Shown: in pieces, positions 338-15,771 of the stretch
How positions within the stretch are numbered: the stretch's first letter is position 1
Layout: every line of letters begins with the position of its first letter
Assembly (NCBI GenBank): GCA_003220055.1
Contig: QHRF01000096.1
Span: forward strand, 1 to 32,184
Origin: Verrucomicrobiota bacterium
GTDB taxonomy: Bacteria; Verrucomicrobiota; Verrucomicrobiia; Chthoniobacterales; UBA10450
Direction: 5' to 3'
Length of the DNA stretch: 32,184 nt
Notes under the pieces: generated by a model
Told to the model about the DNA's origin: nothing
The model's database searches: none
The model's input: only the letters and a program-made list of their open reading frames with translations
Translations under genes and position numbers: made by a program

Positions 338-1333
338 TCAAAACGCGGTTCTTTTTGGGGCGACGACCAGGCCAATCGCAAAACCGGTTAACAAACCGCA
401 TAAATGCGCTGACGTGCTGACTTGCGGCGTCGAAATATCGAACACGATTTGAATGGCGATGATAAGCAGAATGTTGAGAAGTCGTTGCCTCGCCTGCCAA
501 ACGTGGCGATGGCGAACAAGAAATCCGGCCCAGGCCCCGACAATTCCCATCACGCAACCAGACGCGCCAACAAGCTCAGCTGGCCGGACAATTTTTATGA
601 CCGTCAACAAAACAACGCCAGCCGTTGATCCGACTCCCGCGATCAGGTAGCACATTGCGAATCGGATTGTGCCGATGGTCCGTTCCAGAGGCGGACCGAG
701 CACATAGAGAGCGAAAAGATTAAAAACGAGATGAAGCAGGTTGTAGTGGAGAAAAAGCGCGGTAAAGAGTCGCCAAAATTCGCCTTTGCTGATAACGGCA
801 TAAAAGTCCACCGCGCCGAGTCGATGCAAGATAACCGGATTGATCAGTGCGCCTCGCCACAGTTCGATACAAAAAGCTCCGACATTAAGCAGAATGAAAG
901 CAATTACGGCCGGAGCACGTTGTAATCGACGTTCTCGATCTTGTGGCGGGCTCTGGCCTTGAATCTGGTCGCCCGAGCGCGCGCGTGATTCCAAGTTTCG
1001 AAAAAGTTGAAGCTGATCCCGCACCTGCGCAGTCGGATGCAGGAATTGCAGCATGGCAGTTAATCGTCTGGCCGACTGGTAGCGGCCATGCGCGGCCAGT
1101 TGCGATGCTTTTCGCAATCCGACGGCTGGGAGAAACAGAAGCGCGAACCAGGCGCCACCGCCCACATAACCGGCGTATTCACGAAAGAACAGCCAGGCGA
1201 CACCGGTGATGGCGAGCACAATTACCGCGGCGATTCGCCAGCCGCGAAAAATTCCTTCCGGCCGCCAGGCTCGGGCCAGGACAAGCAGGGGCGTAGTCAC
1301 CGCAATAAACAAGAAGATGTGATTTAAATCCAA
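338..1333 (-). CDS. Rhomboid-family intramembrane serine protease
   Basis: 331 residues. Rhomboids cut transmembrane segments of substrate proteins inside the membrane with a Ser-His dyad. Visible hallmarks: WRLFTALFLH near 187-196, the HLVFN motif with His201 and Asn205 (oxyanion-hole positions), GASG with the nucleophile Ser258, and SAH with the catalytic His310 followed by a glycine-rich last helix. Two hydrophobic segments come before an approximately 60-residue basic, probably cytosolic linker (about 80-140), so this is a rhomboid domain with an N-terminal membrane extension. The start is TTG at 1333, because an in-frame TAA lies three codons upstream and no ATG precedes the first membrane segment. 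The substrate is unknown. Confidence 0.85.
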   Translation of the reverse strand: MDLNHIFLFIAVTTPLLVLARAWRPEGIFRGWRIAAVIVLAITGVAWLFFREYAGYVGGGAWFALLFLPAVGLRKASQLAAHGRYQSARRLTAMLQFLHPTAQVRDQLQLFRNLESRARSGDQIQGQSPPQDRERRLQRAPAVIAFILLNVGAFCIELWRGALINPVILHRLGAVDFYAVISKGEFWRLFTALFLHYNLLHLVFNLFALYVLGPPLERTIGTIRFAMCYLIAGVGSTAGVVLLTVIKIVRPAELVGASGCVMGIVGAWAGFLVRHRHVWQARQRLLNILLIIAIQIVFDISTPQVSTSAHLCGLLTGFAIGLVVAPKRTAF

Positions 1334-3670: not shown

Positions 3671-4522
3671 TCACGTCTGTTCCGGCATCGGCGACTGTTC
3701 GTTGTCGATCTTCGGCTCGGGCTCGGTGGCTGGTTGCGCCGGGCCGGGCTCGTCTATGCGCATAATCCGCGCAGCGCGGCCGCTTTTTTCGTCGATCGCG
3801 ACCAACGCGCCGTGCAAGCGAACTTCACCAGCGGCCACCGGAAACGAGGCCGGCATGTTCGAAACGAAGCGATTCATGATTGGTTCAATCGTCCGGCCAA
3901 GAATCGAATTCACCGGACCGCACATCCCGGCATCACACAAAAACGCAGTCCCGCCGGGGAGGATTTGTTCGTCCGCAGTTTGGACATGGGTATGCGTGCC
4001 AATCACGGCCGAGACTTTCCCATCTAGAAAACGTCCCATCGCGATTTTCTCGCTCGTTGTCTCACCGTGAACATCGACAATGATGTTTGCAGTTTCCTCC
4101 CGCATCTTGGCGACCGTTTCATCCATCGCGCGAAATGGATTCTCCAGAATCGGTTGCATGAACGTGCGACATTGCACGTCGATCACACCGATCTTTCCCT
4201 TCGTCGTCTCGAGGACGATCGATCCGCTTCCGGGCGCCCCCGGCGGATAATTTACCGGTCGGAGCAACCGCGGCTCCGTGTCGATAAACGACAAAATATC
4301 TTTCTGGTCCCAAACGTGGTCGCCTGTGGTCACGACTGAAACACCAGCTCGCAAAAGATCGATCGTGATTTTGCCGGTGATGCCACGGCCGCCGGCGGCG
4401 TTTTCGCCATTGACCACGATAAAATCGACGCCGTGCTGTTCCTTTAGTTCCGGCAACCGGGCGATGACGGCATTGCGTCCGGGCTCGCCCACGACGTCAC
4501 CGAGAAAAAGAACCGTTAGCAT
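3671..4522 (-). CDS. ymdB: YmdB-family metallophosphoesterase
   Basis: 283 residues, family-typical plus a C-terminal Pro/Glu-rich tail of about 25 residues. YmdB proteins are dinuclear metal phosphodiesterases; the Bacillus member hydrolyses 2',3'-cyclic nucleotides and affects mRNA decay and biofilm genes. Visible motifs in order: LGDVVGEPGR (metal Asp near 9), NGENAAGGRGIT, GDHVWD near 68-73, HGETTSEK, GTHTHVQTADE, and CDAGMCGP. At the third motif the usual metal-ligand Asn (GNH) is Asp (GDH); Asp can still bind metal. The common partner gene for RNase Y is not adjacent. The ATG start at 4522 leaves 46 bases to the divergent repeat and amidase region. Confidence 0.88.
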   Translation of the reverse strand: MLTVLFLGDVVGEPGRNAVIARLPELKEQHGVDFIVVNGENAAGGRGITGKITIDLLRAGVSVVTTGDHVWDQKDILSFIDTEPRLLRPVNYPPGAPGSGSIVLETTKGKIGVIDVQCRTFMQPILENPFRAMDETVAKMREETANIIVDVHGETTSEKIAMGRFLDGKVSAVIGTHTHVQTADEQILPGGTAFLCDAGMCGPVNSILGRTIEPIMNRFVSNMPASFPVAAGEVRLHGALVAIDEKSGRAARIMRIDEPGPAQPATEPEPKIDNEQSPMPEQT

Positions 4523-4566
4523 TGAACAAGATCGTATTGAAGAGGTTCAAAACGTCGATGCGAAAT

Positions 4567-4709
4567 AAATGACGAATGGCGAAGGAATGACGAATGAATA
4601 TTCAAGCCCGAATGACGAAAGCCTGTCTGGCGGTTTCGGCGCCGCCTCAGGTTTCGTCCTTCGTCATTTGTCATTAATTCGTAAGTCCGTCATTCGTCAT
4701 TCGTCATTT
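4567..4709. repeat. Mirrored ATGACGA/TCGTCAT repeat element
   Basis: The left half repeats ATGACGA-type units (4569, 4587, 4612); the right half repeats TCGTCAT-type units (4660, 4694, 4701). The outermost AAATGACGA at 4567 is the exact reverse complement of TCGTCATTT ending at 4709. The centre holds a shorter GC-rich imperfect palindrome near 4628-4650. The element has the same architecture as the heptad repeat at 1358 but a different unit. It lies between the ymdB and amidase starts and overlaps the predicted 5' end of the amidase gene. Confidence 0.8.
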
Positions 4710-5957
4710 CTCCTGTTGCTCTTTCCGCTGACGCTACATGGCGCGGACAACCTCGGAGTTCTCGGCAGCAAACCAAAGTGGGAGGTGCTCGAGCATTATC
4801 AGGAAACCATTACTCACGACGAATTCACGCATCTGATCAACGACGTCTATTGCACACACGGATTCGCGGCAGACTTGATCAAGATCGACAATGACGCCGC
4901 GCAGATTCTTGCCAACCGCGAATCGCACAACGTTTTCACTCTGCGTTTTGCGCCGGATGCGAATTCGGAGGCTCATACTCCGCGACTTTGGCGTCCTGCT
5001 AAGTCGCTGCCGTCGGCCAAGCCTGGAAAACCGCTCTTGGGATTGCGCGTCGCGCTCGATCCCGGTCATCTCGGCGGGAAATGGGCGAAGATGGAGGAGC
5101 GCTGGTTTCAAGTGGGCGACACAAAACCGGTGACGGAAGGCGATCTGACATTGCGGGTATCGCGGATGCTCGCTTCGCGATTGCGAAAACTGGGCGCCAC
5201 AGTTTTGTACGTTCGCAACAGCACCGACCCGATCACTCCGAAGCGGCCGGGGGATTTCAAAAAACTCGCCCGAAAAATCCTTATCAGAAACGGCCTGCCT
5301 CAGCCCCGCATGGGCGGGGACGTTCTCGATCCAAACGATCCCGAAAAAGAGCAAACAATCCGATGGCAAAGCGAAATGTTGTTTTACCGGTACAGCGAGA
5401 TCCGTCGCCGCGCCGTGCTCGTGAACACAAAGCTGCATCCGGATCTTGTGCTTTGCCTGCACTTCAATGCCGAAGGCTGGGGTGATCCGAGCAAGCCGAC
5501 CTTGATCGACAATAATCATCTCCATCTGCTCGTGAACGGATCGTATTTGCAAGAGGAGCTCGACCTCGATGACGAACGTTTTGAGATGATCCGCCGCTTG
5601 CTCAGCCGCGCTTACGACGAAGAGCTCCCGATTGCCGATACCGTGGCGACTTCAATGGCGAAAGCGACCGGCCTTCCGCCTTATCAATATCCGACCACGC
5701 TCACTACGACCAAGGTTGGTTCGAGTGGATACGTTTACGCGCGCAATTTGTTGGCCACGCGGCTTTATCGTTGCCCTGTCGTCTATTGCGAACCCTACGT
5801 TATGAATAGCAAGGATGGATTCGCGCGCATCCAAGCCGGCGACTACGACGGCATAAAGGAAATCAACGGCGTCGCACGCAAAAGTATTTTTCGCGAATAC
5901 GCGGACAGCGTGGCCGAAGGCCTGGCCGAATATTATCGCAACGCGCGAGGCCTATAA
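4569..5957 (+). CDS. Exported N-acetylmuramoyl-L-alanine amidase (Amidase_3 type)
   Basis: Up to 462 residues. Amidase_3 enzymes are zinc enzymes that cut the bond between MurNAc and the stem peptide in the periplasm. Zinc ligands are visible: LDPGHLGG (His near 168), TEGDLTL (Glu near 190), and CLHFNAEGW (His near 298). A late Glu in CEPYVMN fits the catalytic Glu. The segment between the second and third ligands is much longer than in AmiC-type enzymes (about 105 residues). The start is uncertain: ATG 4569 and ATG 4587 lie inside the palindromic repeat, and TTG 4668 would give a compact signal peptide with a basic n-region and the core FLLLLFPLTLHG. The signal peptide is partly repeat-encoded either way. 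The gene overlaps convergent aroB by 6 bases. Confidence 0.82.
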   Translation: MTNGEGMTNEYSSPNDESLSGGFGAASGFVLRHLSLIRKSVIRHSSFLLLLFPLTLHGADNLGVLGSKPKWEVLEHYQETITHDEFTHLINDVYCTHGFAADLIKIDNDAAQILANRESHNVFTLRFAPDANSEAHTPRLWRPAKSLPSAKPGKPLLGLRVALDPGHLGGKWAKMEERWFQVGDTKPVTEGDLTLRVSRMLASRLRKLGATVLYVRNSTDPITPKRPGDFKKLARKILIRNGLPQPRMGGDVLDPNDPEKEQTIRWQSEMLFYRYSEIRRRAVLVNTKLHPDLVLCLHFNAEGWGDPSKPTLIDNNHLHLLVNGSYLQEELDLDDERFEMIRRLLSRAYDEELPIADTVATSMAKATGLPPYQYPTTLTTTKVGSSGYVYARNLLATRLYRCPVVYCEPYVMNSKDGFARIQAGDYDGIKEINGVARKSIFREYADSVAEGLAEYYRNARGL

Positions 5958-7022
5958 CGCTCCCACCGCGGTGCGAATATCGTCCATCGTCACATCGCGC
6001 GATAAATTTGCCGAACCGATCTTCGACGTGACCACGAATCGGATCTCGCCGCGTTCAAATTTCTTGTCGAACTTGAGCGCGTCGAAAATTTTCTGCCGTG
6101 GAAAATTTGGCGGGAGTTTTGTCGGCAACTCGAACTTCTGCAAGAGATCGACAATCGCATTGCGCTGTTTCTCGGGAAGACCGGCTTTATTTATCGAGAC
6201 ATCGCACGCGGCAACCATTCCCAAGCTTACCGCCTCGCCGTGCGAAATTCCCTGGTAATTAGTCGCGCGCTCGACGCCATGCCCGACCGTGTGACCGAAG
6301 TTGAGCAAGGCGCGCTCACCGTTTCGGTCGCGCTCGTCATTCGCTACGATCCGCGCTTTGATTTCAACATTTCGGCGAATGAGCGAGGCAAAATCGACAT
6401 TGTTAAGATCGACATCTTGTAGCTGACGGAACATTTCTGCGTCGGCGATGATCGCATGCTTGATGATTTCGGCGAACCCCTGACTCAACTCGCGCGACGG
6501 CAACGTTTTCAAAATCTCGACGTCGTCGATGACGAGCATAGGCTGGTGAATGGCGCCGATTAGGTTTTTGCCAGCGCCGGCGTTAACGCCGGTTTTGCCG
6601 CCAATGGAACTATCCACCATCGCCAGAAGCGTGGTTGGAATCTGCACATTCGGAATACCGCGCTGAAAAATTGCCGCCACAAATCCGGAAAGATCGCCGA
6701 TCACGCCGCCGCCTAGTCCGATGACAATGGATTGTCGATCCAGGCTCTCTTGCAGCATTTGTTCGCAGACGGTGCCGGTTTGCTCCAGCGTCTTCGATTG
6801 CTCACCCGCTGGAACAGTGATCAATACCGAATCAAAACCCGCGGATGTTAAGCTTTTCTTAACTGGCTCAGCAAAAAGCGGCGCGACATTCGTGTCGGAT
6901 ACGATCGCGATCCGCGACGGCGCTAGTTTTTCTTTTATCGCCTCGCCGACGGTTTCCAACAAACCGGGGCCAATCAGGACAAGATAGGAATGCTGACCGG
7001 TGCGAAATTCTATCGAAATCAC
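5952..7022 (-). CDS. aroB: 3-dehydroquinate synthase
   Basis: 356 residues from GTG 7022. It converts DAHP to 3-dehydroquinate, the second shikimate-pathway step, using NAD and a divalent metal. Seen: GLGGGVIGDLSGFVAA (dinucleotide region), IPTTLLAMVDSSIGGKTGVN, and the metal ligands Glu in GFAEIIKHAI, His in LNFGHTVGHG and His in GISHGEAVSLGM. The family N-terminus (a beta strand, then IGPGLL) lines up with VISIEF...LVLIGPGLL, which favours the GTG start. ATG 7109 is an alternative that adds 29 unconserved residues. Longer starts would run through the divergent gene at 7126. It is convergent with the amidase. Confidence 0.93.
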   Translation of the reverse strand: MISIEFRTGQHSYLVLIGPGLLETVGEAIKEKLAPSRIAIVSDTNVAPLFAEPVKKSLTSAGFDSVLITVPAGEQSKTLEQTGTVCEQMLQESLDRQSIVIGLGGGVIGDLSGFVAAIFQRGIPNVQIPTTLLAMVDSSIGGKTGVNAGAGKNLIGAIHQPMLVIDDVEILKTLPSRELSQGFAEIIKHAIIADAEMFRQLQDVDLNNVDFASLIRRNVEIKARIVANDERDRNGERALLNFGHTVGHGVERATNYQGISHGEAVSLGMVAACDVSINKAGLPEKQRNAIVDLLQKFELPTKLPPNFPRQKIFDALKFDKKFERGEIRFVVTSKIGSANLSRDVTMDDIRTAVGAL

Positions 7023-7125
7023 AGCGAGACGGTATTGGTTTTTGCCGCTCCGAAAAGGAAAACCGTGGGACTCGCGAAAGCATTCGGAGTTGACAAAGCG
7101 GGCTTCCATCCTGTGTAAGTAGATC

Positions 7126-7533
7126 ATGCCTGACGAGCCGCCTCCGCCGCCACCGTCCGATGCCGGACCGAAATCAACCGGGCTCCCTTCCAATATCGCG
7201 GCGGCGCTTGCCTGTATTCCGCTCATTGGCGGCATCGTGTTTTTCATTTTGGAGAAACAGGACCCTTTTGTGCGTTTCTATTCGATGCAATCGATCGTCT
7301 TTGGTCTGGCCTGGTTCTTGTTCAACGTCGTTTCGGCGATCATCCATGTGATCTTTAGTGCCATCCCGGCAATCGGAGGGATCCTGGTGTTCTTTTGGGC
7401 GATCATCGCCGCGGTCATCCACGTCGCCTTTGTTGTTCTCTGGATCATCGCCACCTGGCGCGCATTCACTGGCGTGCGTTGGGAAATCCCATACATCGGT
7501 CCGATGGCGCGCAAACAAGTCGGCGAAAGTTAA
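7126..7533 (+). CDS. DUF4870/Tic20-like small membrane protein
   Basis: 135 residues. It has a Pro-rich cytosolic N-terminus (PPPPPP near 5-10), then about three to four hydrophobic helices between 22 and 115. The family-typical segment DPFVRFYSMQSIVFGLAWFL follows the first helix, and the C-terminus is WRAFTGVRWEIPYIGPMA. This pattern is shared by DUF4870 proteins, whose function is unknown. The ATG lies on a CATG palindrome facing the 5' region of aroB. Its TAA interlocks with the stop of convergent holA (4-base overlap). Confidence 0.75.
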   Translation: MPDEPPPPPPSDAGPKSTGLPSNIAAALACIPLIGGIVFFILEKQDPFVRFYSMQSIVFGLAWFLFNVVSAIIHVIFSAIPAIGGILVFFWAIIAAVIHVAFVVLWIIATWRAFTGVRWEIPYIGPMARKQVGES

Positions 7534-12067: not shown

Positions 12068-14104
12068 GTGAATCTGCCGAAATTCTTTGCCGAGCTGAAG
12101 CGCCGCCACGTCTATCGCGCGGCCGTCGCTTATGGGATGGCGGCATGGCTCTTAACCCAGATCGCGACTCAAGTCTTCCCATTCTTCGACATTCCGAACT
12201 CGGCAGTTCGCTTTGTCATCGTCGTGCTACTTCTTGGATTTCCAATCGCGATGGCGCTGGCGTGGCTCTACGAATTCACAGGCGCAGGATTTGTTCGGGA
12301 CGAAGATGTCGATCCAGGTGTCCGAAAAAGCGCGGGGCGTCTCCTCGATTTTACAATCATCGGTGTTCTTCTGCTTCTGATCGCGGTGCTGATTTACGAG
12401 CGGCTTCCATCTTACAGCTCAAGCGGTGAACTGATCCCTGACAAGAGCATCGCGGTGTTACCGTTCGCCAATTTCAGCGACGACAAGCAGAACGCATTTT
12501 TCGCGGACGGCATCCAGGACGACATTCTGACGAGTCTGGCTAAGATCGCCGACTTGCGCGTGATCAGCCGTTCGTCGGTGATGCAATTTCGCGATCCGGC
12601 GGCGCACAATCTGCGCGAAATTGGCCGGCTTCTCGGAGTGGCCAACGTATTGGAAGGAAGCGTGCGGCGGGAAGGCGATCGGGTGGTGGTGAATGTGCAG
12701 TTGGTCGACGCTCTGAAAGATCGGCATCTCTGGGCCAATCGCTACGAACGGACGCTGGCAGACTCGTTAGGCCTGCAAGGCGAACTCGCGTCAGAGATCG
12801 CAGAGGCGTTGCGAGTGACGTTGAGCCCTAACGAAAAAGCGCGGATCGCAACCAAACCGACCGAAAATACCGATGCTTACCTGGTTTATCTCCAGGCGAA
12901 CCAGATTGAACGCAATCCGGACACGTTGCTTGAAGATTACAAAAAGGCAGAGCAGCTCTACCAGACCGCGATCGGGCTCGACCCAAAGTTCGCCCTCGCC
13001 CATGCGCGACTCGCTTCCACGCGTGCGGCGATTTTTCATTATTATGAGCCGCTTGATGCCTGGAAGACGAAAGCCCGCGTCGAAGCCGATGTTGCCCTTC
13101 AGTTGCAACCGAATCTGGCCGAGGCGCATCTCGCTCTCGGTCAATGCATTTACTGGATCGACCGGGATTACGATCGCGCGCTGGCCGAGTTCGATACCGC
13201 GTTGCGACTGTCGCCGAACAACAGCGAGACCGCAGTATTGATTGCCGCGATCAAGCGGCGTCAGGGAAAATGGCAGGAGTGTCTCGAAAGCTACGAGAAG
13301 ATCAGCAAACTCGATCCGCAAAATCCAAACGTCGTTCGAACGCTGTTGTTCACGAATACCGCGTTGCGGCGTTGGCCGGAAGCCGCGCGTCTGGTCGAGA
13401 GAATGCGCGCTCTCGCGCCGGCTTCGCTCGTGGCCAAGGCCCAGAGCGGTTACGTCGATTTTTGGTGGAAAGGCGACACCCGTTTATTGAAGTCGCTGAT
13501 CGCGGAAATCCCGGCGAATGTCGATCCGGACGGCGTGGTGACGACCTGCCGATGGGATGTCGCGATGATCGAGCGCGATTACGCGACCGCGAAGCGGGTG
13601 ATCGACGCATCGTCGCTCAATGAATTTTCCTACACCAACGCCGGCACCACCCCGAAAGATTTTTTTTACGGGTGCATCGCGCTCGCACAAGGCGACGTGA
13701 ATGGTGCCCGAAAATTTTTTGAGACTGCGCGTGCTCGTTACGAGGCGGCGGTCATGGAATCACCTGACAGCGCGGAGCGGCACGCGAATCTTGGATTGAC
13801 CTACGCATTGATGGGCCGGAAAGAGGACGCGATTCGCGAGGGCCGGCGGGCGGTCGAGCTCAAACCTGAATCTCTCGACGCGGTCGATGGCGTATTGATG
13901 AATTGCTATCTCGCCCTGATTTACGCGCGCTGCGGCGAAAATGATCTGGCCATCCCGTTGATCGAGCGTTTGCTGAAAACACCCGGCGCAGTCGACAGCG
14001 CGGATTACAGTGTCACGGTGAACGATTTGAAACATCGCTGGGAATGGGACCCGATCCGCAACGACTCGCGGTTTCAGCAATTGATCGCGCATTCGTCGCC
14101 GTGA
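12068..14104 (+). CDS. Membrane-anchored TolB-N-like / TPR protein (first of tandem pair)
   Basis: 678 residues from GTG 12068. Order: a conserved N-terminal cytosolic patch ([18 protein letters not shown]), two to three membrane segments to about 120, then a TolB-N/FlgO-like domain from about 127 ([14 protein letters not shown]...[17 protein letters not shown]...[10 protein letters not shown]...[22 protein letters not shown]...HLWANRYER), followed by many TPR units to the C-terminus. Such modules often sit behind adenylate cyclase, winged-helix or kinase domains in signalling proteins. Here no catalytic or DNA-binding domain is seen, so a scaffold or sensor role is inferred. It is divergent from uvrB with about 70 bases between starts, and its stop overlaps the next gene's GTG. 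Confidence 0.8.
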
Positions 14105-15771
14105 ACCTGAAGAAATTCTTCGCCGAGCTGAAGCGCAGAAAGGTCTACACCGTTGCAATCGCCTACGTTGTTGGTGGCTGGGCACTCGCCCAGGGCATCT
14201 CGCAGTTGTTGCCGGTCTTCGATATTCCGATCTGGGTCGTTCGGCTTGTTGTTCTCCTGATCGTGCTCGGGTTTCCGGTCGCGCTCGTACTCTCCTGGTT
14301 TTTCGATTTCACTCGCTACGGGATCGTGCGCACGCCTGACATGAAGGATAAGATCGACATCGGACCGGCTGTCTCTTCAAGCGAACCGTCGATTGCGGTC
14401 CTCCCGTTCACAGATTTGAGTCCCGGCGAAGAGCGCGATTATTTCGGCGAGGGAATCGCGGAAGAAATTCAGACAGCGCTGGCGAAAATTGACGGATTGC
14501 GCGTGGCCGCGCGCCGTTCTTCGTTTTGGTTCAAAGACAAAAAAGCGGACCTGAAGGAAATTGCAGACAAGTTGAATGTGGACCACGTGCTCGAAGGCAG
14601 TGTGCGTCGTGAAGGGAATCGCGTCCGCATCAGTGCCGAGCTGACGGATTGCTGCAATGGCTTCACGCTTTGGTCGGAAACATTCGAGCGCGAGATGCAG
14701 GGAATCTTTGCGCTTCAGGACGAGATTGCACGGGCCATTGTCGATGCGCTGAAATTGAAGCTGGATATCTCAGCGCCTTTGTCGTCGCGACTCGTACGGA
14801 GCACCGCTGCCTACGACGTTTATCTGCACGGCTTGTTTTATTCCGACAGGACAACCGAAGAAGATCTGCGCAAAAGCCTGGAATATTTCGAACGCGCTCT
14901 CGAAAAAGATCCGCAATTCGGTCGGGCCTGGACCGGGATGGCAAAGGCGTGGTTGTGGTTGGCGGATGCTTACGTCGCACCCCGCCAAGCTTATTCAAAA
15001 GTGCGCGAGGCCGCGATCAATGCCCTCAAGATCGACAATGACGATGCGGAGGCACATGTCTATCTGGCAGAAACAAAGCGCATTCTCGATTGGGACATGG
15101 ACGGAGCGGCCCGTGAATTTCGCCGCGCGGTCGAGCTCGATCCGAAGTCGACGTCTTCGAACTATTTTTCGGCCGCGTTTTGGGCTGCCCGCGGCGAGCG
15201 CGACGAAGCGCTAATCTATTTGGAGCGCACGTCCACCATCGATCCGGCATCGCTTTGGGTGAACAATTCGGCTTGTGAGCTGTACCGTTACTTCGGTTTA
15301 TACGATAAAGCGATGGCGGCCGGCGAACGAGCGTTGCAACTCGACCCCGCATTTGTCTATGGCGAGCCTTTGCTGGCCGCGCTTTATCGCGAGATGGGAC
15401 GTTTCGACGAAGCGATCGCGCTCTATCAAAAGGCGCAGAACATCGGCGGTCGACCGGCGTTCGGTTTGGCTATTACTTACGCGCGGATGAATCGGCCGGA
15501 TGAAGCGCATCAAGTTCTTGCCAAAACTATTGCGAGTCGCGGGAGTTATACGCCCGGCGACGCCATTGCGCATGTGTACGTAGCGCTCGGTACCCACGAC
15601 AATGCGATTCGCGAGCTCGAACGCGCGAGCGACGACCGGTCCTCATCGCTTCATTTCATCGGCATTGCGCCCGAATTCGCACCGCTTCGCGCTGACAGAC
15701 GTTTCTTGTCGATCCTGAAAAAGATCGGCCTCGAACCGGCGAAAGTCTTCGCCGCCGGCGCAGCGCCCTGA
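14101..15771 (+). CDS. Membrane-anchored TolB-N-like / TPR protein (second of tandem pair)
   Basis: 556 residues from GTG 14101, which overlaps the preceding stop (GTGA), so translation is probably coupled. It is a paralogue of the upstream gene: [20 protein letters not shown] at the N-terminus, then two to three membrane helices, then SIAVLPFTDLSPGEERDYFGEGIAEEIQ split by the same spacing, [21 protein letters not shown], and TPR units such as LEYFERALEKDPQFGRAWTGMAKA and GAAREFRRAVELDPKS. It is about 120 residues shorter than its partner in the TPR part. The homologous N-terminus fixes the start; an earlier in-frame start at 14044 would lie inside the previous gene. The two may form a hetero-complex (inference). 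It ends next to the convergent M50 gene. Confidence 0.82.
   Translation: MNLKKFFAELKRRKVYTVAIAYVVGGWALAQGISQLLPVFDIPIWVVRLVVLLIVLGFPVALVLSWFFDFTRYGIVRTPDMKDKIDIGPAVSSSEPSIAVLPFTDLSPGEERDYFGEGIAEEIQTALAKIDGLRVAARRSSFWFKDKKADLKEIADKLNVDHVLEGSVRREGNRVRISAELTDCCNGFTLWSETFEREMQGIFALQDEIARAIVDALKLKLDISAPLSSRLVRSTAAYDVYLHGLFYSDRTTEEDLRKSLEYFERALEKDPQFGRAWTGMAKAWLWLADAYVAPRQAYSKVREAAINALKIDNDDAEAHVYLAETKRILDWDMDGAAREFRRAVELDPKSTSSNYFSAAFWAARGERDEALIYLERTSTIDPASLWVNNSACELYRYFGLYDKAMAAGERALQLDPAFVYGEPLLAALYREMGRFDEAIALYQKAQNIGGRPAFGLAITYARMNRPDEAHQVLAKTIASRGSYTPGDAIAHVYVALGTHDNAIRELERASDDRSSSLHFIGIAPEFAPLRADRRFLSILKKIGLEPAKVFAAGAAP

Follow-up and report, generated by a model that had tools for sequence, protein, structure and literature searches.

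To our knowledge, protein-coding palindromes have so far been discussed mainly for Rickettsia and for a few enterobacterial elements. The Rickettsia palindromic repeats (RPE), of ~100–150 nt, occur in many unrelated genes (Ogata et al., 2000, 2002; PMC10969869), and some of them lie in frame and are translated as an extra peptide, core metabolic genes included (PMC10969869). In the enterobacterial RU-1/RU-2/RU-3 group, RU-2 forms residues 1–30 of the predicted signal peptide of YPO1552, and orthologues elsewhere have unrelated signal peptides (Delihas, 2007; PMC2759123). REP sequences are stem–loops of 20–40 nt, most of them with a GTAG or CGTC tag (PMC3733652; PMC2817692), and tandem heptanucleotide repeats have been recorded in Calothrix as well as in Xanthomonas and Nostoc (PMC4692102).

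We have analysed a palindromic heptamer repeat, here called the cassette, at the 5' end of an amidase gene in a stretch of 32 184 nt (the window) from an uncultured member of the Chthoniobacterales close to ‘Candidatus Udaeobacter’. We consider it probable that the repeat displaced the old amidase start and now supplies a new start together with the basic n-region of the signal peptide, export being kept. By analogy, the cassette works like an RPE, the likeness being one of mode: it is a many-copy palindromic repeat with in-frame inserts in unrelated genes, namely LeuRS and IspG, for both of which there are empty-site orthologues, and an aldo/keto reductase. Unlike RPE, it belongs to another phylum and is built of 7-nt units, most copies lie outside genes and several supply starts. 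RU-2 is the direct precedent for a repeat that supplies part of an export signal, but it is not described as a heptamer palindrome. The cassette resembles REP and BIME in being dispersed, palindromic, mostly intergenic and sometimes inside genes, and differs from REP/RAYT in forming arrays of 7-nt units ~125 nt long; identity with REP/RAYT was ruled out by this heptamer array with arms of ~50–60 nt and by the failure to find a transposase flanked by two copies among 30 Y1_Tnp loci. The tandem heptanucleotide repeats share the 7-nt unit and the mostly intergenic location, but they are described as tandem, whereas the cassette has inverted arms in a fixed order and some of its copies are predicted to be translated. 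The literature searched, which took in few subscription papers, contained no account of the cassette DNA or its peptide, and its novelty is provisional.

The palindrome and its dispersed copies

A reading of the window made earlier from sequence only had assigned a mirrored repeat to positions 4567–4709. An imperfect inverted repeat is found at exactly these coordinates (Table 1), ‘mirrored’ being understood as reverse-complementary, i.e. palindromic. The arms of this ~143 nt cassette, at 4567–4599 and 4677–4709, are 79% complementary, with 77 nt between them and a GC-rich loop separating them. Matches to the heptamer pair TTCGTCATTCGTCATT with up to two mismatches number five at 4568–4708 and one elsewhere, as against 0.04 expected in shuffles of the window. 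A second heptamer palindrome, of the GTTGAGC/GCTCAAC type, lies at 1357–1449 of the window, just upstream of a rhomboid-like ORF (338–1333, minus strand).

Table 1. Positions of the cassette, the amidase gene and neighbouring features in the window
Feature	Positions	Strand	Remarks
Cassette, a heptamer palindrome with a loop between its ATGACGA (left) and TCGTCAT (right) arms	4567–4709	.	Consensus from 91 cassettes
Left arm, ATGACGA orientation	4567–4599	+	Candidate starts ATG 4569, 4576 and 4587
Right half, TCGTCAT orientation	4653–4709	+	Stop-free in amidase frame; encodes VLRHLSLIRKSVIRHSSF
Displaced ancestral start ATG 4558	4558–4572	+	Reads MRNK, then TGA (4570–4572) overlapping ATG 4569 (ATGA)
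Alternative TTG start inside right half	4668–4670	+	Would give MSLIRKSVIRHSSFLLLLFPLTLHG
Hydrophobic core and c-region LLLLFPLTLHG	4710–4742	+	Ancestral; putative cleavage before ADN (4743); from alignment with repeat-free orthologues
Amidase_3 (N-acetylmuramoyl-L-alanine amidase-like) ORF, 462 aa	4569–5957	+	Residues 1–47 cassette-encoded
YmdB-like metallophosphoesterase	3671–4522	−	Divergent neighbour, kept in nearly all relatives examined
aroB (3-dehydroquinate synthase)	5952–7247	−	Downstream of amidase

The repeat is dispersed. The window's own genome carries 24 sites of the heptamer-pair unit at one mismatch and none of a reversed control pattern, TTACTGCTTACTGCTT, and exact heptamer-pair sites range from 0 to 96 per relative genome; the control pattern itself has 207 matches in one relative (G056), which would thus have an abundant heptamer repeat of its own. 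The DNA examined holds 123 distinct two-armed cassettes, in all of which the ATGACGA arm precedes the TCGTCAT arm; their median length is 125 nt. The consensus of 91 cassettes runs AATGACGAAnnnCGAATGACGAATGACGAAgGAATGACGAA...TTTCGTCATTCGgcnTTCGTCATTCcTTCGTCATTCGTCATTCGTccTTCGTCATT, a heptamer array with arms of ~50–60 nt. Most copies lie outside genes and only 5 of 99 are clearly internal to them; because codon scoring proved too weak to call genes, internal insertions were confirmed by homology. Cassettes exceed their shuffled versions in stop-free length (89% vs 64%) and in positive tails (69% vs 36%). Genes beside cassettes show no enrichment in exported proteins (16 of 98, against a base rate of 20.5%). 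Their presence is patchy and recurrent on the tree, none having been seen inserted between near-identical strains. An assembly artefact is unlikely, since the same arrangement recurs in many independent assemblies, mostly metagenome-assembled and all from uncultured organisms.

A link to a transposase was considered and rejected, Y1 transposases occurring in cassette-rich and in cassette-poor genomes alike. Among 30 Y1_Tnp loci (L395–L424) a cassette lay near two only, and on both sides in none. In one of these pairings (L415, genome G021) ~110 nt separate the cassette, at 1198–1290, from the gene for a strong IS200-like Y1 transposase; in the only other (L401) the cassette is inside IspG.

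The amidase start codon and signal peptide

Repeat-free orthologues of the amidase start at a conserved ATG of the ...GTCGATG type, from which the frame leads at once into a normal signal peptide, as in MFHFEKVRSQLGLLALSLSILSGNSQT with ADNLGILG after it. This ATG is in frame and open in all 10 repeat-free orthologues of the clade; of the 12 cassette-bearing ones, 11 have it out of frame, the window's included (one-sided Fisher test, P ~2×10−5, calculated by hand with relatedness ignored). The exception is the nearest relative (L010/L039, 93% identity), and because the old ATG is still in frame there, the displaced state in the window may be young. The sequence-only reading had named as evidence against itself relatives without the repeat that have an upstream start and a conserved signal peptide. 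Such relatives do exist, yet in the window their start codon no longer shares the amidase frame, and the objection half holds.

We propose that a copy of the dispersed heptamer palindrome came to separate the old amidase start codon from the core of the signal peptide, leaving the old ATG (4558) out of frame, where it would open only a mini-frame. Translation of the amidase would now begin within the repeat, most likely at ATG 4569 and alternatively at ATG 4587 or TTG 4668, and the overlap of ATG 4569 with the stop codon of the displaced mini-frame would permit ribosomes to restart. The right arm, with no stops in the amidase frame, would supply the basic n-region VIRHSSF, and export would be kept through retention of the old hydrophobic core and cleavage site.

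The position of the available start codons argues for translation of the repeat. In seven of the 12 repeat-bearing orthologues (L044, L050, L053, L057, L060, L065 and L085) the last ATG, GTG or TTG before the mature domain is 30–57 codons away from it, within the repeat or at its edge, and the one after that is 13–40 codons inside the mature protein. Since these seven have no start between the left part of the repeat and the mature domain, they can keep a signal peptide only by translating the repeat. The stop of the displaced frame overlaps a start of the amidase frame by NTGA (ATGA or GTGA) in 7 of the 11 out-of-frame cases; five of the seven share one junction and probably represent one lineage, making perhaps three events overall. 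These overlaps hint at restart by coupling, but are only suggestive. No clear Shine–Dalgarno sequence precedes ATG 4569. As to the idea that ATG units of the repeat can act as start codons, the window does offer plausible in-frame candidates, but across cassettes such starts are no commoner than in shuffled cassettes (62% vs 60%).

The repeat was also said to encode the amidase N-terminus and the basic n-region, and here the reading of the frame agrees: residues 1–47 come from the cassette, and its stop-free right arm gives VIRHSSF. The frame begins MTNGEGMTNEYSSPNDESLSGGFGAASGFVLRHLSLIRKSVIRHSSF, continues with LLLLFPLTLHG and then ADN, and its repeat-encoded peptide includes MTNGEGMTNEYSSPNDESLSGGFGAASGFVLR. 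The codon for F47 ends at 4709, the exact end of the repeat, and the hydrophobic core begins at the very next base. A basic n-region, a hydrophobic core and a small residue before the cleavage position together make this a predicted Sec signal peptide. By measures of our own, as distinct from a trained predictor, the n-region charge is +1.9 in cassette-bearers and +2.6 in repeat-free orthologues, and the core hydropathy 2.56 and 2.76, respectively. The further suggestion that such repeats could create export signals has to be given up for this gene: repeat-free orthologues already have the signal peptide, which rules out its arising from nothing, and export was not created by the repeat because the ancestor had the hydrophobic core and the cleavage site before it.

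As RNA, the palindrome is predicted to form a hairpin of −70 kcal/mol (z −5.3), whose stem takes in the left-arm starts and stops just short of ATG 4558. So strong a hairpin could block initiation at the left-arm starts; with ATG 4558 outside the stem it fits a leader-dependent restart, yet it is also the best argument for poor initiation there. The 5' regions of relatives' amidase genes hold cassettes, a TTCAACGATT-type family, a TTCGGAT heptamer and a CGCCTGCCACGCCGTAG-type repeat, and the amidase frame is open through the 3' parts of all four kinds; a fifth repeat, GTCATCCCGAGCCGCGAAG..., occupies the same spacer in L052, L059 and L068, upstream of an intact start and outside the coding frame. 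On the tree of the mature enzyme ~8 changes are needed for the cassette label, at least three of them forced by supported branches. The amidase n-region, in its divergent spacer, looks like an insertion hotspot that is tolerant of repeats. It is conceivable, though we doubt it, that the repeat serves mainly as RNA or DNA structure, a hairpin in the ymdB–amidase spacer that tunes transcription or translation, with coding as a tolerated by-product. The hairpin with starts in its stem, the divergent spacer with different repeat families at one place, and the fifth repeat kept upstream of an intact start would all suit such a role. Relatives without any repeat, however, keep the gene order and a spacer of ~120 nt, the copies in LeuRS and IspG lie within the genes and so cannot have a spacer role, and a structural function is compatible with coding rather than excluding it.

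Copies in other genes

The cassette lies in frame inside LeuRS in three genera (G035, G017 and G008; L330, L335 and L336), at a loop that is a short GGxKPGG in most other relatives and that maps between residues 530 and 532 in the solved structure of LeuRS 1h3n. The insert is of 33 residues and its peptide is NDEARMTNDERMTKPESTGSSSFVIR. Other heptamer-like inserts occur in this loop in two further relatives, with one more of another family. In L338, L339, L341 and L363 the LeuRS loop carries other, unrelated-looking short repeats, which makes it an insertion hotspot in an essential enzyme. A cassette is likewise in frame inside IspG in three genera (G035, G017 and G026; L315, L203 and L401) and inside an aldo/keto reductase of G017 (L199). 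Synonymous divergence (pS) is 0.23–0.31 between the LeuRS inserts and 0.62–0.65 between their flanks, and because the inserts are the more alike at synonymous sites, the comparison points to younger independent insertion or conversion and not to one old event.

The same LeuRS values would also be expected if the arrays had grown in place through heptamer slippage and gene conversion, without insertion of an element, an origin that head-to-tail heptamers would favour and with which the lack of a transposase having cassettes on both sides, or of any established target duplication, is in keeping. We nevertheless judge it rather unlikely, as the 123 two-armed copies, of median length 125 nt, share one arm order and a consensus that covers the non-heptamer spacers too, and slippage alone leaves the dispersal of the palindrome unexplained.

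The proposal that the repeat could provide start sites upstream of genes extends beyond the amidase. The only possible start codons lie within the cassette for a prepilin in G035 (with a counterpart, G000 C98, in the window's genome) and, again in G035, for what we take, from reading the sequence, to be a PstA-like permease and an exported protein. The leader peptide of this T2SS-G-like prepilin is cassette-encoded at matching positions in two genera (L207, 2468–2592, in G000 C98; L318, 2581–2661, in G035 C42). Two similar lipoproteins, L205 (G017) and L313 (G035), have a cassette that enters the signal peptide immediately ahead of the lipobox; the L205 protein is a GH26-type hydrolase.

The heptamer palindrome may tentatively be seen as a frame-tolerant insertion module. 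It would then be a mobile repeat compatible with coding, in a soil lineage of very high abundance. Because seven is no multiple of three, the TCGTCAT arm reads VIRHSSF stop-free in every frame, and each ATGACGA unit carries an ATGA stop–start overlap. An insertion that destroys a start or shifts a frame would thus supply both a site for restart and a linker that is neutral and basic, and essential genes (LeuRS, IspG and the amidase) would survive it. The true peculiarity of the repeat is this tolerance: one arm yields the same heptapeptide, free of stops, whichever frame is read, and the other arm offers ATGA overlaps. Coding palindromes are now found in Verrucomicrobiota of the Udaeobacter type, which rank among the most common bacteria of soil, and with matched filled and empty sites within the same genes. 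These make the long-standing question of how proteins gain segments from repeats testable, and with it the survival of genes after loss of a start codon. They also carry a warning for annotation, as automatic start calls in these genomes may make proteins too short or too long where heptamer repeats occur.

Constraint on the repeat frame and on the enzyme

Across five related copies the repeat has no stop in the amidase frame and a pN/pS of 0.52, whereas the shifted frames give 1.02 and 0.81 with 2–5 stops each, which shows weak purifying selection on the amidase frame of the repeat. This bears on the possibility that the repeat is 5' untranslated DNA and that the amidase starts at TTG 4716 or in the mature domain, export through this signal being lost. 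The left-arm starts do lie within a strong hairpin and TTG 4716 is available in frame; that codon, however, sits in the hydrophobic core, so that the protein would lack an n-region, and such a start is at odds both with the seven orthologues that lack one between repeat and mature domain and with the stop-free, weakly constrained repeat frame. We regard this as improbable.

The mature amidase is, judged from the same related copies, under clear constraint (pN/pS 0.20). The nearest named relative of the window's genome is Verrucomicrobia bacterium AV56, with 93% amidase identity. That the gene is a decaying pseudogene with a meaningless N-terminus, as the out-of-frame old start might suggest, is very improbable given an intact frame of 462 codons 93% identical to the nearest relative, the catalytic-type motifs DPGH, EGD and LHFNAE kept across 19 orthologues, the low pN/pS of the mature part and a predicted structure that matches solved amidases.

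The protein is a member of Amidase_3 by both sequence profile and predicted fold, the Pfam PF01520 score of 27.2 bits being barely above the cut-off of 27. A fold search with its AlphaFold model gave matches to Ami1 of mycobacteria, to AmiA and AmiC of E. coli, and to LytH; a profile search of PDB sequences gave no match. H120, E143 and H251 are invariant in the 19 orthologues and, by motif, are the putative zinc ligands. Elsewhere in the window, positions 12068–12132 and 14101–14165 share a 65-nt sequence (75% identical), apparently the starts of paralogous ORFs.
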